Shown here piece by piece: positions 7,293 to 23,438 of a DNA stretch of 30,598 nt. The notes beneath the pieces were generated by a model that was not told the DNA's origin, searched no databases, and saw nothing but the letters and a program-made list of their open reading frames with translations. The position numbers and the translations under genes were made by a program. How positions within the stretch are numbered: position 1 is the first letter of the stretch; each line of letters begins with the position of its first letter. This DNA comes from a virus, in IMG/VR virus record IMGVR_UViG_3300048011_000039, positions 1 to 30,598 of that record; one strand, written 5' to 3'.

Positions 7293-9130
7293 TATGCACC
7301 TACCATTGCTTTGCTGAAGCCACCGCCACGTAGTCTAGCATCTGCGACAGCAGACTTCGCCGCGTTACTGATCTGAGGCAGTAGGTTTGCTATTTCTGCA
7401 CGTACGGTTTGCTGTACGCCTGTGGTTACGTTGATGTTCTGCACTACTGTTACACCACCGCCGCCTAGCTGGTTATTAGGAACAATCGATCCATTGCCTG
7501 AGGGAATCATTAACTCTGGTCCGCGCTCACCGACTAGATAAGGTCTACCACCTGCGACCGCGCCACCCATTGCCTTTTTACCGCTCAATGGTACTGCTTG
7601 GTTGTATGCCTGAAAAACGCCGTTTTGTTTACTCAAACCACCCATGCCCGCAGTAATCGCACCGAATGCCGCGTCAACAATGTACTTCTGAACCAGCATT
7701 TTTATTAAGCTATCGACAACGCTTTTAGCCATATTGCGCATTGCATCGCTGAAATTCTTAGCGCCGGTGATTGCGCCAGTAAAGGCGTCACCTAACCCTG
7801 TGATTGCCTGATCGCCCAGCTTCTCAAGTTCTGGTATTAGATCGCCCGCCATCTCTCTAGTGTTTTTTAAGTTAGCGATGAATGTCTCAAAAGCAGTCGG
7901 CAAAAATGTGTCTACGCTAGTTCCTAACCCACTAACACTTTCTGCGGTAGTACCAATCGCATCTTTGACTTTGAAAAGGCTTGCAATAATTGCCGAGAAA
8001 TCAAAGTCAGTGAATCCTGTAAAAGTTCGGTCTGATTCTTCGCCTAACTCTTTGATTGCGGCGATTTGTGCTTTTATGCTATCTCTGAGCCGCTCTTGAT
8101 CTGCAACGATTGCGTCGTTAGTGTTGCTAAATGGCCCTGCGTTTTTGACGTAACCAGCAAGTCGCTCTTCTACTGCGGCCAAATCCTCTTCTAAGCCTTG
8201 CAGGCTTTTTGTTTCAATAGAAGAAAACGCGTCGTTTATTTGCCTTCTAAAATTAATAACAAAATTGCCCATGCTTACAAAAGCATTTAAAACTTCTTCT
8301 ATGCCTCTGATTGCGTCAGCCAGACCTTGTACAAAGTCGCCTGCCAACTCTTGTCCAAACTCTTCAACGCTATCGTTGGTTGCCTTTATGCCAAGTTGTA
8401 CTTTTTTTGTGAGCAAGTCAGATAGTGCGGCAAGTGCTGGAGCTAAACCCGCGACGATTTGTTTAACTACTCCATTAAACAAAGATTGCATACGGAACAA
8501 AGAGTCGTTGGCATCCTCGACACCTTTAGCGGCACTCGACGACATAACTACGCCAAGCGCCCTTGCCTCACCCAATAACTCAGTAAGGCCATCACGACCT
8601 AATGCAAGAGTGTTTACGAGCGCGGCACCTTCAGAGTCGAATAGCTTAAAGGCTATTTTTAGCGGGTTTACGCCTCTAGTTTTTGCTTCTTCAAACGCAT
8701 CGGCCAAAGTCAGCATTTGCTGATCTAAAGGCATTTTGGTCAGCTTTCTGGCGTCAATACGAAGCTCACGTAATGCACCTTTTGCCTCGCCTGTTCCGAC
8801 TGCGGCTTCTGCCGTTCTACGTGTAAACCTCTGTAGCGCCATATTCATGGTGTTTATTTCTACACCAGTAATGCCTCCAGCATACTGCAAAGCACTCAAC
8901 GCTTCTGTGGTTGTGCCTATTTTTTGAGCGGTTTTACTTAGTGTGTCTGTGGCCTTCAGCGAGTTAGCAATCAACAAGCCCATACCGCCTGCACCGACTG
9001 CGGCGACTAATGCGGTTTTGAAGTTAAAGAAGATTTTAGACAGGCCGGCGAACGCGCGCTTGATTCCGCGCAAGGCTTTCTGCGTCTGGTCAAACGCCTT
9101 GATGATAATGCTTACGGATTCAGTCGCCAT
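7292..9130 (-). CDS. Tape measure protein
   Basis: 612 residues. It follows the frameshifted tail chaperone, overlapping the end of the shifted frame by 11 bases. The N-terminus is basic, then comes a hydrophobic glycine-rich segment (LVAAVGAGGMGLLIA, about residues 37-51). Long alanine-rich helical stretches follow, including a KTAQKIGTTTEALSALQYA block typical of tail tape measures. The C-terminal region has GGAVAGGRPYLVGERGPELM, a motif common near the ends of tape measures. Using about 1.5 angstrom per residue (general rule for this family), the tail would be near 90 nm. I see no lytic enzyme domain inside it. Confidence 0.93.
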   Translation of the reverse strand: MATESVSIIIKAFDQTQKALRGIKRAFAGLSKIFFNFKTALVAAVGAGGMGLLIANSLKATDTLSKTAQKIGTTTEALSALQYAGGITGVEINTMNMALQRFTRRTAEAAVGTGEAKGALRELRIDARKLTKMPLDQQMLTLADAFEEAKTRGVNPLKIAFKLFDSEGAALVNTLALGRDGLTELLGEARALGVVMSSSAAKGVEDANDSLFRMQSLFNGVVKQIVAGLAPALAALSDLLTKKVQLGIKATNDSVEEFGQELAGDFVQGLADAIRGIEEVLNAFVSMGNFVINFRRQINDAFSSIETKSLQGLEEDLAAVEERLAGYVKNAGPFSNTNDAIVADQERLRDSIKAQIAAIKELGEESDRTFTGFTDFDFSAIIASLFKVKDAIGTTAESVSGLGTSVDTFLPTAFETFIANLKNTREMAGDLIPELEKLGDQAITGLGDAFTGAITGAKNFSDAMRNMAKSVVDSLIKMLVQKYIVDAAFGAITAGMGGLSKQNGVFQAYNQAVPLSGKKAMGGAVAGGRPYLVGERGPELMIPSGNGSIVPNNQLGGGGVTVVQNINVTTGVQQTVRAEIANLLPQISNAAKSAVADARLRGGGFSKAMVGA

Positions 9131-11593: not shown

Positions 11594-11614
11594 AAAACGC
11601 CCCCGAAGGGGCGT
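11594..11614 (-). terminator. Rho-independent-type hairpin after the capsid gene
   Basis: On the minus strand ACGCCCC TTCG GGGGCGT forms a 7-bp stem with a stable UUCG tetraloop, followed by TTTT then ACT. The short U-run suggests a partial terminator that keeps capsid mRNA high and lets some read-through into the connector genes. Confidence 0.75.
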
Positions 11615-13247: not shown

Positions 13248-13988
13248 CTATTCTGGGATTGGCACCCACCAGTGCCGACAGTTGTAGCCACCTCTTACAC
13301 GGAATGGATCGCCTGGACGCTTACCTGCCCAGCTGTCATTCCATATTTCGTATATCTCGTCAGTAGTGTATTCCTTGCCGACATGATTGCGACAAAAGGG
13401 CCGTGTGCTTTCTATCGTATCACCCTCGTATCTGAATTTGGTAATGCCAGCCTCTGCCGCGCTTGCGGATACTAAAGTTGCACTAAACTCGAAAAGTGCA
13501 TCGTGTAACATGGTTCCTGAGTAGCGTTGCAGGTCAGAAGTCAAAAGGCTGTTGAGTTCGTCAAGGCTTGCTGAGAATGGCGTGCCTGACAGCGTGTTGT
13601 TATACACCTGCTGATAAAGCGCCTCTACAAAGTCATCAGCTAATGCCTCGTGGCCTGTAAAGCTGAACTGCTGTAACTGGCCGATGACGCTCTGCGGAAC
13701 TCTAAAGGCCGCGAACTGCTCCATGAACTCTTGTGTCAATGCTACGGCGTCAGGGTACTCGCGTATGATGTCATCTATGACTGCGAGGTATTCGTCACGG
13801 ACAAGACCGTCGATCTGTGTCCGAAGTGCTAACGCCGCGTCGAGGTCAAACAGCTGACCGTCACGCAAAGGCAAGCCAGCCATCAAGTCAGTTAGACCAC
13901 GCCGTAACTGCTCCATAGCGCGCAAAAGGCGACGCTCATGGTTAGAGGTCGCCCCTGCGAGTGCTTTGGTTAGCTCTTCACTGTCCAT
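13248..13988 (-). CDS. Minor head protein / head morphogenesis (Mu gpF-like)
   Basis: 246 residues. It overlaps the portal stop by 11 bases. The N-terminal two thirds are helical, and the C-terminus has TRPFCRNHVGKEYTTDEI (about residues 200-217) and ends FRVRGGYNCRHWWVPIPE. The cysteine/histidine-containing end is the hallmark of the Mu gpF-like minor head protein family, with a Zn- or disulfide-like C...C..H pattern. Such proteins are ejected or attach inside the head near the portal and are needed for assembly. Position right after portal supports this. Confidence 0.88.
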   Translation of the reverse strand: MDSEELTKALAGATSNHERRLLRAMEQLRRGLTDLMAGLPLRDGQLFDLDAALALRTQIDGLVRDEYLAVIDDIIREYPDAVALTQEFMEQFAAFRVPQSVIGQLQQFSFTGHEALADDFVEALYQQVYNNTLSGTPFSASLDELNSLLTSDLQRYSGTMLHDALFEFSATLVSASAAEAGITKFRYEGDTIESTRPFCRNHVGKEYTTDEIYEIWNDSWAGKRPGDPFRVRGGYNCRHWWVPIPE

Positions 13989-15486
13989 CAGTTACCGTTT
14001 GGACGCGTTCAGTTAGCACGTCACCACCGGCAACATCCTCAAGCCCGATCTTCTCGCGCACCTCGTTAGGCGTCACCATTCCACTGTCGATGTGGTACTT
14101 GTAAATCTGCGTCTCTTTGGTGAAGTCACCGACCGCTGTGGTAGCTTCTTCAATCTCAGCGTGTGCCTGTGCAAGCACTTGGTCATCAAGCACAAGGTCT
14201 GCAATCTGCTTATCAATCTCACGCAACAACGTAACTGACTTGACACCACTAGCACGGGTCTTCTGTAGAAACTCAAGCTCTGTCCCGTAATCACGAATGT
14301 CAAAGCTGTCAGGATAGCTGACCTCTACCTCGTGCAGATTGTGACCCTGCCACCGACACCACAACTCCCACAGCTGTTCTTCAGCCAACTCAAGGATGTC
14401 GGCCTTCTCTGCTAGCTTGGCGTTTAGCATTTGGAACTCAGTCTGCATGGCAACGCCTGACTGCGTCATTGCCTCTGTACCACGCACTGCGCCCATGTGG
14501 GCCATCCTATTGATCGAGTCGATCTTGTCCTCTATAGAGGCCCTGATGGCGTCTAGGTTAGCCCCTGACGGTTGCATCTGGTACGGCTTTAATCCTGCGT
14601 CGATGTCATCGCTTATGTTGATGACTGCACCAGCACCAGCAGTCGCGTCAGTGTCAAAGGTCTTTACGAGCGTCGGGTGGTTAGAGATGCGGATAAGCTG
14701 TTCGATTTCCGATAGCTCTTGGTAAATGGCTTGTTGCATATAGCTGATGTCAGAGATGTCGCTGATACCAATGCCACGAACGATTGACCGGTTGGCCGGT
14801 ATGTTAACCGCCGGTATCTTGCCGATAGGGTTGTCGATAGTCTCGACGATGGTTGCCTCGTCACCGTGGTAACGGATGAGTTGAATCTGCTCTTTGGTCC
14901 AAATGCGGAAATACGTTTCTGTCGTCGTGCCGTCAATGCGGTTTACCGACTCGCGCACCTTCATGTAGGTCAGCTCATGGCGACCGCTTGGCATCCGCTC
15001 ATACTTCCAGTCATAGACATTCTCTGGCGTTATCAGCGTGACGTATGGCCGTATCTCTTGATCTAACTCTTCTGCTCTAGTGCCTGCCGTGGACTGTGGC
15101 TTGTCCATAAAAATCCACACGTGGCCGTACACGCTCGACCATATCTGAGATTCACGCATAAAACTGTTGAAGTTCTGGCCGTCAAGGTTAGCGTCCTTGA
15201 TGAATGCGATGAGGTCTGCACTGCCTTCCATCTGCTGAAAGTTACGAGTAGGCGGCTGACGCCATAGGAACGACGAATAAACGTGAACCACGTTGCGGCA
15301 ATGGTTGTCTAGCGGTGTAAGAGCCAAGCGGCGCGAATATGCGTTCTTGTCCTCATTGAGGTAGCTGGTCAGGTATGAGCCATCGCGGTAGTCTTGCCCA
15401 CCCATGTATGACCGGACATAAAACTCCCAGCGGTCCAGATTGTTTTCGTAGTCAGGATGCTGGTATTCAATATCTTCGTAATACAT
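13978..15486 (-). CDS. Portal protein
   Basis: 502 residues. It starts MYYEDIEYQHPDYENNLDRW. Blocks such as YSRRLALTPLDNHCRNVVHVYSSFLWRQPPTR, IGKIPAVNIPANRSIVRGIGISDISDISYMQQAIYQELSEIEQ and AHMGAVRGTEAMTQSGVAMQ are typical of SPP1/HK97-type portals, with the long stem and tunnel helices in the middle. It lies between TerL, which ends 1 base away, and the minor head gene. The length is normal for siphovirus portals. It forms the 12-fold DNA channel and binds the terminase. Confidence 0.93.
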   Translation of the reverse strand: MYYEDIEYQHPDYENNLDRWEFYVRSYMGGQDYRDGSYLTSYLNEDKNAYSRRLALTPLDNHCRNVVHVYSSFLWRQPPTRNFQQMEGSADLIAFIKDANLDGQNFNSFMRESQIWSSVYGHVWIFMDKPQSTAGTRAEELDQEIRPYVTLITPENVYDWKYERMPSGRHELTYMKVRESVNRIDGTTTETYFRIWTKEQIQLIRYHGDEATIVETIDNPIGKIPAVNIPANRSIVRGIGISDISDISYMQQAIYQELSEIEQLIRISNHPTLVKTFDTDATAGAGAVINISDDIDAGLKPYQMQPSGANLDAIRASIEDKIDSINRMAHMGAVRGTEAMTQSGVAMQTEFQMLNAKLAEKADILELAEEQLWELWCRWQGHNLHEVEVSYPDSFDIRDYGTELEFLQKTRASGVKSVTLLREIDKQIADLVLDDQVLAQAHAEIEEATTAVGDFTKETQIYKYHIDSGMVTPNEVREKIGLEDVAGGDVLTERVQTVTDGQ

Positions 15487-19345: not shown

Positions 19346-19370
19346 AAAAGAAAAGGCCGCTTATGCGGCC
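19346..19370 (-). terminator. Strong hairpin terminator inside the early operon
   Basis: The minus strand has GGCCGC ATAA GCGGCC followed by TTTTCTTTT. The stop codon TAA of the upstream gene (19361-19363) lies in the 4-base loop. The downstream gene starts only 11 bases later, so read-through or antitermination would be needed. Confidence 0.85.
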
Positions 19371-22436: not shown

Positions 22437-22810
22437 CACCGCGTCACCCTCTCTCCGCTGTAGGTTACATACTGCCCGAACCGCTCAAGGCATAACTGCC
22501 GATAGCTTTCGCTTTGCATGAAGTCGTGTGTCTCCTCGTCGAGCCTCGTCCACTTGCGATAAGGGATGACGCCCGTCACATCTGCGGCTTTTTGCGCAAA
22601 GGGACTAATACCTTTCTCCATTTGTGCCGCTTTCTTTAGCCAGTTAACGACAAACGACTTGCAGTTTTTTTTGCGTCTAGCAGGGTTAGCATCAATCCAA
22701 CACTCTGCGGCGTCATACTCAGCAAAAACATCGACACTAGGATACGCGTGTTGCCACTTAATAAAATCCTCGTCAGCGGGATACCATTCCTCGCCATGAA
22801 AGTCTTTCAA
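22436..22810 (-). CDS. Possible replisome organiser / helicase-loader-like protein
   Basis: 124 residues with a strong AGGAGG ribosome site and an unusual TTG start at 22810. The block AECWIDANPARRKKNCKSFVVNWLKKAAQ (about residues 37-66) resembles the C-terminal region of phage replication initiators and helicase-loader-like proteins, where the W..ANP.RRK...FV.NWL pattern recurs. There is no ATP-binding site. It may recruit host replication enzymes, since the phage carries none of its own. The assignment is tentative. Confidence 0.45.
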   Translation of the reverse strand: MKDFHGEEWYPADEDFIKWQHAYPSVDVFAEYDAAECWIDANPARRKKNCKSFVVNWLKKAAQMEKGISPFAQKAADVTGVIPYRKWTRLDEETHDFMQSESYRQLCLERFGQYVTYSGERVTR

Positions 22811-23049
22811 TGGAAACCTCCTTCTGCGTTTTGTGCTTTAACTGCCTGATCGACAATGTGGTGAAACAAATGATTGGGTGGAAACGTGCCGTCAAATTCT
22901 CTTCCATCACTTTGCATTTCGAAAATACGCCAAAAGCTAGTTTCATATCTTTGTTCTAGAGTGTCGATTGCCTCTCGACAACCTTCGAAACTTTCATACA
23001 TCCCATCCATTAACCCAGTGCGCATATCAATCAATAGAAACTTACTCAT
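22807..23049 (-). CDS. Small hypothetical early protein
   Basis: 80 residues, start ATG 23049 with the ribosome site AAGGAGAAGGGA directly before it. MSKFLLIDMRTGLMDGMYES leads into EGCREAIDTLEQRYETSFWRIFEMQSDGREF. No family recognised. It is the first gene after the 386-base non-coding stretch. Its ribosome site contains GAAGGGA, complementary to the loop of the sRNA at 23354-23438. Confidence 0.6.
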   Translation of the reverse strand: MSKFLLIDMRTGLMDGMYESFEGCREAIDTLEQRYETSFWRIFEMQSDGREFDGTFPPNHLFHHIVDQAVKAQNAEGGFH

Positions 23050-23081
23050 TCCCTTCTCCTTTTTTTAGACAATAGAAATCA

Positions 23082-23217
23082 TTAGAGGCGGTTGTTGCCC
23101 TATACGAGATTCCAGCTAGTCCATCATTCATACAGTATCAGTGCAGATCATTAACGGCTCTGCCAGACCGCGCCCTTACTACTTGGCAACATAACCACTG
23201 TTCGTCCCCGCCTCTAA
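23082..23217. repeat. Long-range inverted repeat in the non-coding region
   Basis: TTAGAGGCGG at 23082-23091 pairs perfectly with CCGCCTCTAA at 23208-23217. Just inside, GGTT and GTTGCC (23090-23099) can pair with GGCAAC and AACC (23185-23196) around a two-base bulge; the arms share 2 bases. The enclosed 85 bases have no convincing ORF. It could be a structured RNA on either strand or a DNA-level signal. The 23050-23436 gap holds only this and the sRNA gene. Confidence 0.7.
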
Positions 23218-23319
23218 AGGTCGTAGGAATGATTCGGCTTTTGTGAGCGACTGCACCTGAGACAGCACTATTTGACTAGGCTCGACTAGGCGTACATTAA
23301 AAAGAGGATAGGTGATAGG

Positions 23320-23347
23320 TATACAGTCAGCTGTATTGCTGTATAAT
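23320..23347 (+). promoter_or_regulatory. Plus-strand sigma-70 promoter of the small RNA
   Basis: TATACA (23320-23325) is a 4 of 6 match to the -35 and TATAAT (23342-23347) is a perfect -10, spaced 16 bases. The expected start is the G at 23354. It points against the surrounding minus-strand genes. Confidence 0.75.
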
Positions 23348-23353
23348 TTTCCT

Positions 23354-23438
23354 GTCCTAAGTACGCAAGCTAAGGATGCCACGAGCGAATCCCTTCCGCA
23401 AGTGGCTATGGGCCAGTGATGAGCTGGCCCTTTTTTTT
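23354..23438 (+). ncRNA. Phage small RNA candidate, about 85 nt
   Basis: It is bounded by a sigma-70 promoter and a strong intrinsic terminator, with no ORF or ribosome site between. Visible stems: TCCT..AGGA near the 5' end, GCCAC-GA-GCG-loop-CGC-AA-GTGGC (23378-23406), and the terminator GGGCCAG/CTGGCCC. The 9-base loop AATCCCTTC (23388-23396) contains TCCCTTC, which complements GAAGGGA in the ribosome sites of the genes starting at 23049, 25301 and 25496. It lies convergent with the HTH gene at 23437. A regulatory sRNA is the simplest reading; no known family is recognised. Confidence 0.7.
23410..23438 (+). terminator. Strong intrinsic terminator of the small RNA
   Basis: GGGCCAG TGATGAG CTGGCCC (7-bp stem, 7-base loop) is followed by eight T residues. 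It is directional for the plus strand; on the minus strand no U-run follows. Its T-run reaches the stop of the HTH gene at 23437-23439. Confidence 0.93.

Follow-up and report, generated by a model that had tools for sequence, protein, structure and literature searches.

The window, a virus record of 30,598 bases, carries in an intergenic gap of 386 bases, next to an sRNA, a perfect 10-base inverted repeat that an earlier note had pointed out: TTAGAGGCGG at 23082–23091 and its exact reverse complement at 23208–23217, 126 bases away from start to start. This repeat is helix P1 of a pseudoknotted RNA read from the minus strand, which is the coding strand of the surrounding genes, and the core of the RNA measures ~190 bases. 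The stretch 23082–23217 is only the middle of it: the pseudoknot extends outside to 23233, and two more conserved hairpins lie beyond the pseudoknot, out to 23289. With these two upstream hairpins included, the RNA is ~215–240 bases long in window-type phages. The parts are given below in their order along the RNA, from the upstream hairpins to the gene that follows, with the evidence for each; the last line gives the neighbour on the other strand.

23276–23289, minus strand: P7 hairpin, hexaloop UCGAGC; stems CUAG/CUAG, AGAG/CUCU or UCAG/CUGA by family; in many families, not all
23251–23266, minus strand: P6 hairpin, upstream of the core; family-specific stems and a similar loop; in many families, not all
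23223–23233, minus strand: 5′ arm of the pseudoknot helix PK, upstream of P1; 10 of 11 pairs in the window; permutation test
23216–23221, minus strand: ACCUUU segment joining PK to P1; fixed by the search pattern
23208–23217, minus strand: 5′ arm of P1, the outer helix (right arm in the earlier note); exact complement of 23082–23091; covaries across families
23196–23210, minus strand: conserved segment CGGGGACGAACAGUG (CGGGRAYRAACAGYG); comparison of relatives, partly fixed by the search pattern
23196–23200, minus strand: 5′ arm of P5, CAGUG; pair counts in 32 sequences
23185–23191, minus strand: 5′ arm of P2, the inner helix; covariation
23155–23170, minus strand: P3 hairpin, CGG/CCG with a 10-base loop; arm covariation among families by eye
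23139–23143, minus strand: 3′ arm of P5, CACUG, inside a conserved CUGAU motif; pair counts in 32 sequences
23123–23133, minus strand: 3′ arm of PK, within the P2 loop; PK pair counts and permutation test
23093–23099, minus strand: 3′ arm of P2; covariation
23082–23091, minus strand: 3′ arm of P1 (left arm in the earlier note; TTAGAGGCGG); covariation
23064–23081, minus strand: conserved trailer after P1, CUAUUGUCU and then A-rich; comparison of relatives
23051–23062, minus strand: ribosome-binding site AAAGGAGAAGGG, conserved as far as the start codon; comparison of relatives
22807–23049, minus strand: first ORF after the leader (80 aa), which is the variable cargo in this phage; ORF list
23320–23438, plus strand: neighbouring sRNA with promoter TATACA-16-TATAAT and terminator; on the opposite strand, reads away from the leader and is not part of it

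The inner helix GTTGCC/GGCAAC, also proposed before, was present as P2 (TGTTGCC/GGCAACA on the plus strand; 23185–23191 with 23093–23099 on the minus strand) and covaries among relatives. A third helix, PK, absent from the earlier note, pairs 23223–23233, past P1, with 23123–23133 in the loop of P2. Because PK crosses P1 and P2, and P5 crosses P2, the covariation showed the predicted fold to be an interlocked pseudoknot.

Relatives were collected in several ways. Through two protein queries 89 viral loci were gathered, and the gap was conserved by blastn in 34 of them (most of the gap in 33, only 36 bases at a contig end in L007). Scanning of viral contigs with a conserved 18-mer pattern and with a trailer pattern gave 63 and 61 stretches, respectively, and the IUPAC pattern CTGTTYRTYCCCGN{5,6}AAAGGT gave 114, of which 80 were listed and loci up to L211 used. 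With the latter pattern 84 distinct elements were extracted among the matches listed, including the window and a chance match (L188). The later sets, without two chance pattern matches (L178 and L188) and without elements truncated at the end of a contig, comprised 82 elements and the window; the PK pair count was made on the 82 without the window. Because ACCUUU and CGGGRAYRAACAG (RNA strand) are prescribed by the search pattern, invariance of these two segments is not evidence. A covariance model, R1, recovered three loci without the search pattern (L154, L155 and L158), and in L154 ACCUUU reads ACCUAU.

The arms of the helices differ between phages and stay complementary, and on this comparative ground the structure was accepted as real. 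Among families the P1 arms read (plus strand) TTAGAGGCGG/CCGCCTCTAA, TTAGAGGGC/GCCCTCTAA, TTAGACACG/CGTGTCTAA, GACAACG/CGTTGTC and others, and the P2 arms GTTGCC/GGCAAC, GGTGAC/GTCACC, GGTAAC/GTTACC, GGTCCC/GGGACC and GTCATGG/CCATGAC. PK occurred as 44 distinct helices among the 82 elements, e.g. GTTAGATCAG/CTGATCTAAC in L167 and GTTAGTTCAG/CTGAACTAAC in L179. When arms were swapped among families at three redundancy levels (27, 18 and 13 family representatives), the energies of the true PK, P2 and P1 arms beat all 5,000 permutations, with z from -6.6 to -11.3 on the minus strand. In an alignment of 83 distinct rows made with the R1 model, changes on both sides were seen in 14 of 17 pairs and 77.4% of cells were paired, a pair count that was equalled in none of 500 shuffles and by none of the slid controls, every one of which was lower. 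P3 was weak in this alignment (44.9% of cells paired, partly through misalignment). Of 32 sequences, 29 had all five pairs of P5 (CAGYG with CRCUG) and the remaining three had four, with variants CAGUU/AACUG, CAGGG/UCCUG and CAGCG/CGCUG. The earlier note had held that arms varying without compensation in related phages would speak against a structure; the opposite was found for P1 and P2. Its suggestion of a second structured RNA was supported, on the minus strand. For the window and 20 near relatives RNAalifold did not choose P1; the MAFFT alignment used there puts the divergent row L034 in the wrong place.

Neither the repeat nor the folding energy was significant by itself. Perfect 10-mer inverted pairs at most 200 bases apart numbered six in the window versus 1–11 in 20 first-order Markov controls, which is within the range of chance, and at least one such pair was present in 36 of 1000 controls of 387 bases with the composition of the gap. 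Folding of both strands, a check advised before, gave unremarkable single-sequence energies: z-scores for 23078–23222 were weak (-0.61 on the plus and -1.44 on the minus strand), and that of the whole gap was ~-1.0 on either strand.

The strand was read from the non-canonical pairs. Taken as minus-strand RNA, the PK helices, 44 of them distinct, comprised 384 Watson-Crick, 20 G-U, 2 A-C and 17 mismatched positions; if the plus strand were the RNA, the 20 G-U positions would be A-C mismatches. The PK sequences are related, so that 20 to 2 does not stand for 22 independent events. P2 and PK also gained ~2 kcal/mol of stability when folded as minus-strand RNA. The asymmetry of G-U and A-C indicated an RNA on the minus strand, transcribed with the surrounding genes, and that the element is a structured minus-strand RNA is nearly certain.

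The RNA runs up to a gene. A start codon was located 13–64 bases beyond the extracted element, mostly 24–27, in 79 of the 83 elements, and no first ORF was found by script in the other four (L094, L179, L181 and L204). With the strand given by the G-U pairs, these 79 elements lie on the sense strand directly 5′ of a start codon, as a leader does. The 79 first-ORF proteins formed 29 clusters (blastp, E 1e-4), and 41 elements at least 80% like the leader of the window precede 10 different protein clusters. Matches of the first proteins include Mom, RecT, N6/N4 methyltransferase, Dam, HNH (in L038), helicase and head-tail adaptor, and many proteins had no match; the 80-aa ORF of the window matched nothing in Pfam or PHROGs. 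An exonuclease family, phrog_704, is encoded downstream of the element in the window and upstream of it in L186. Since nearly the same leader stands before different gene clusters, the leader is kept and the gene exchanged: the comparison showed that the trailer and the ribosome site belong to the conserved unit, and that the gene fused behind it is exchanged among relatives. The element is carried by many aquatic phages just before the slot of a repeatedly exchanged gene. The idea that the repeat might be a cis element of the gene at 22807, which is compatible with that of a structured RNA, was supported as to a cis element in front of the start codon, but not as to specificity for that gene, because unrelated genes replace it in relatives with nearly the same leader. 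A gene-specific riboswitch or autoregulatory leader was also considered and rejected, the 29 first-protein clusters not being one gene or pathway. At two loci the surroundings are unusual: in L206 the element (7641–7821) is inside a structural module, before a head-tail adaptor gene and with promoter-like sequence between, and in L175 a tRNA-Arg gene (13919–13995, minus strand) lies just upstream of the element on the same strand.

Promoters and terminators were then scored around the element. A sigma-70-like promoter on the RNA strand, the only type scored, was not consistent (2 of 27 representatives at a background fraction of ≤0.05), so that in most families the element may be read through from upstream genes. 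On the opposite strand a promoter was found at the same fraction in 15 of 27, and that of the window reads away into the sRNA. Strong terminator-like hairpins on the strand of the RNA lie at 19370–19355 and 18523–18507 in the window, between the leader and the terminase genes; others in the leftward gene array (minus strand) are at 11613–11598 and 27363–27341. In 28 representatives, the 117 kb downstream contained nine same-strand terminators, a density of 0.077 per kb, and the density for the other strand was 0.051 per kb; L164 and L193 had no same-strand terminator over 11.8 and 7.7 kb, respectively. Enrichment of terminators was therefore not general over these representatives, and an argument for antitermination from it was dropped.

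Known systems were searched for the same RNA. Covariance models of Rfam 15 gave no match at or above the gathering threshold in the window and only a tRNA in 10 relatives; at E up to 10, the window and three relatives gave only weak, unrelated names, with no ribozyme or intron. In the INPHARED phage collection, four element queries matched no DNA apart from 21 bases of a microvirus (E 0.9), judged to be chance, and five terminase-sharing isolates (Pelagibacter phages HTVC202P and HTVC111P, two Vibrio phages and DSL-LC06) gave no model match below E 0.29. In cellular genomes 23 pattern matches look like chance and none has the helices of the element; 6-base complements were flagged by script at four of the 23, where the rest of the element was missing by eye. 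As none was found in the phage collection, the isolates or the cellular genomes, the element may belong to uncultivated, perhaps lytic phages. No earlier description of this RNA was found in searches of open-licence PMC papers. Among the ornate RNAs, GOLLD and ROOL are large structured RNAs of phages and metagenomes whose function is unsettled; they are far larger than this element, which matches no Rfam model, and are not leaders of exchanged genes.

The RNA is probably part of an mRNA and acts in cis, and a cis-acting structured mRNA leader is the best explanation of the locus, which we favour somewhat beyond an even chance. Such a leader would fold as the transcript emerges and would then change expression of the following replication or DNA-modification module, independently of its first gene. 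As the gene behind it makes no difference, the leader would be expected to affect how the entire message is transcribed or translated or how stable it is, or else to be excised and to work elsewhere. A first, speculative guess for this step, by analogy with HK022 put, would be that the nascent RNA acts on the host transcription machinery in processive antitermination. Antitermination, control of translation or mRNA stability, and a processed trans-acting RNA carry about equal weight, each being conceivable rather than probable.

If the RNA acted in trans, it would be a noncoding RNA processed from a polycistronic transcript, which might for example inhibit a host factor or serve as its decoy, and its place before a gene would reflect the tight packing of phage genomes. 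Unrelated genes following the element and the lack of a consistent promoter of its own would agree with this, and the site in the structural module of L206, where an upstream ORF ends next to the core, and the same-strand tRNA-Arg beside the element in L175 suit an RNA with its own function and count against a cis leader. However, no RNA-strand terminator of its own adjoins the element, and the conserved unit includes the trailer and the ribosome site up to the start codon, which would be unneeded in trans. Action in trans is possible at a low level of confidence.

In Bacillus, the eps-associated RNA (EAR) is a structured antitermination leader that is thought to act on RNA polymerase. It is like the present element in being a structured leader and differs in belonging to a host operon and in sequence, the present element having no Rfam match. 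A strict processive antitermination RNA acting on RNA polymerase, in the manner of EAR or HK022 put, would be expected to look as the element does in that it is a structured sense-strand leader of a long co-directional array, indifferent to the gene behind. In the window, two strong terminators follow downstream on the same strand, which also fits because an antiterminator would need them; in other families terminators were not clearly enriched there. An HK022 put RNA stands downstream of an early promoter and suppresses termination in cis with no dedicated protein factor. The put RNA of HK022 (putL/putR) consists of two stem-loops and has a length of about 70 nt (PMC9378689). Like the present element it is a phage RNA working in cis within a leader, before a long gene array and indifferent to the genes behind, but the ~190-nt core with crossing helices, right at the start codon, is much larger and topologically unlike put, and falls outside its size and shape (PMC9378689). 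We would regard put, smaller and simpler, as the nearest working analogue and do not claim membership for the element. Strict antitermination is a guess of rather low probability.

A third reading, also tentative, is a leader for control of translation or mRNA stability, bound by a phage or host protein. It would account for a ribosome site that is in the conserved unit at near-constant spacing, and for conserved unpaired segments that resemble protein or tertiary contact sites; against it, the fold does not include the ribosome site. That ACCUUU might mask this site, a candidate mechanism for such control, was rejected as not universal, since masking fails by eye in L117, L160, L163 and L164. 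The leader of T4 gene 32 has a phage pseudoknot upstream of the ribosome site, tied to one gene and its product. A pseudoknot before the ribosome site is common to both, whereas the gene behind the present element is exchanged.

A self-cleaving or splicing ribozyme is improbable. HDV-like ribozymes have a nested double-pseudoknot arrangement of helices, which the nested crossing helices here recall, and an HNH gene lies behind the element in L038; however, the joining segments are different, conserved hairpins reach farther upstream than the position at which an HDV-like site would be cleaved, and no Rfam ribozyme or intron was matched at E up to 10 in the window and three relatives. A DNA signal, be it the replication origin that the earlier note had allowed for or a recombination site, is the least probable of all, since its intergenic place near recombination and replication genes, the gene exchange at the edge of the element and two GTGGATAA sites beside it in L164 (~100–200 bases past AAAGGT, away from the downstream gene), which we take to resemble DnaA boxes, are set against 20 G-U versus 2 A-C in PK on one strand, expected of RNA and not of DNA, and no origin-like skew turn at the gap; the origin thus found no direct support.

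With the cis-acting leader as the preferred explanation, we tentatively propose, as a suggestion that is still less than even in probability, a new class of phage RNA: a leader cassette of interlocked pseudoknots, with its own ribosome site at the end, that marks a slot for gene exchange in aquatic phages and would give the fused gene protection from termination or privileged expression. If so, the RNA module would stay fixed and accessory genes of DNA metabolism and modification would be exchanged behind it. Rfam lacks this complex RNA, which is present in ~100 stretches of contigs from aquatic phages; its covariation suffices to determine both fold and strand, and it lends itself readily to work on structure and function. 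Exchange exactly at the start codon makes the leader a handle for finding accessory phage genes, and control of phage gene modules by an RNA could be tested on it.

The sRNA on the other strand (23345–23437, plus strand) folds well by itself, with a z of -3.98 and no shuffle as stable. Its loop CCCUUCC (plus strand) can pair with the ribosome site of the leader, GGAGAAGGG; among 17 distinct combinations the base next to this pairing agrees in 10 (7 A/A and 3 T/T), disagrees in five and is undefined in two. By eye the promoter region of the sRNA (23320–23347) is near-palindromic (ATACAG...CTGTAT) and is perhaps an operator. In L165, L166, L167, L170 and L172 the sRNA is replaced by long, different, hairpin-terminated sequences on the opposite strand, beyond the element on its side facing away from the downstream gene; that of L165 reads GTGCCGGA...TCCGGCAC.
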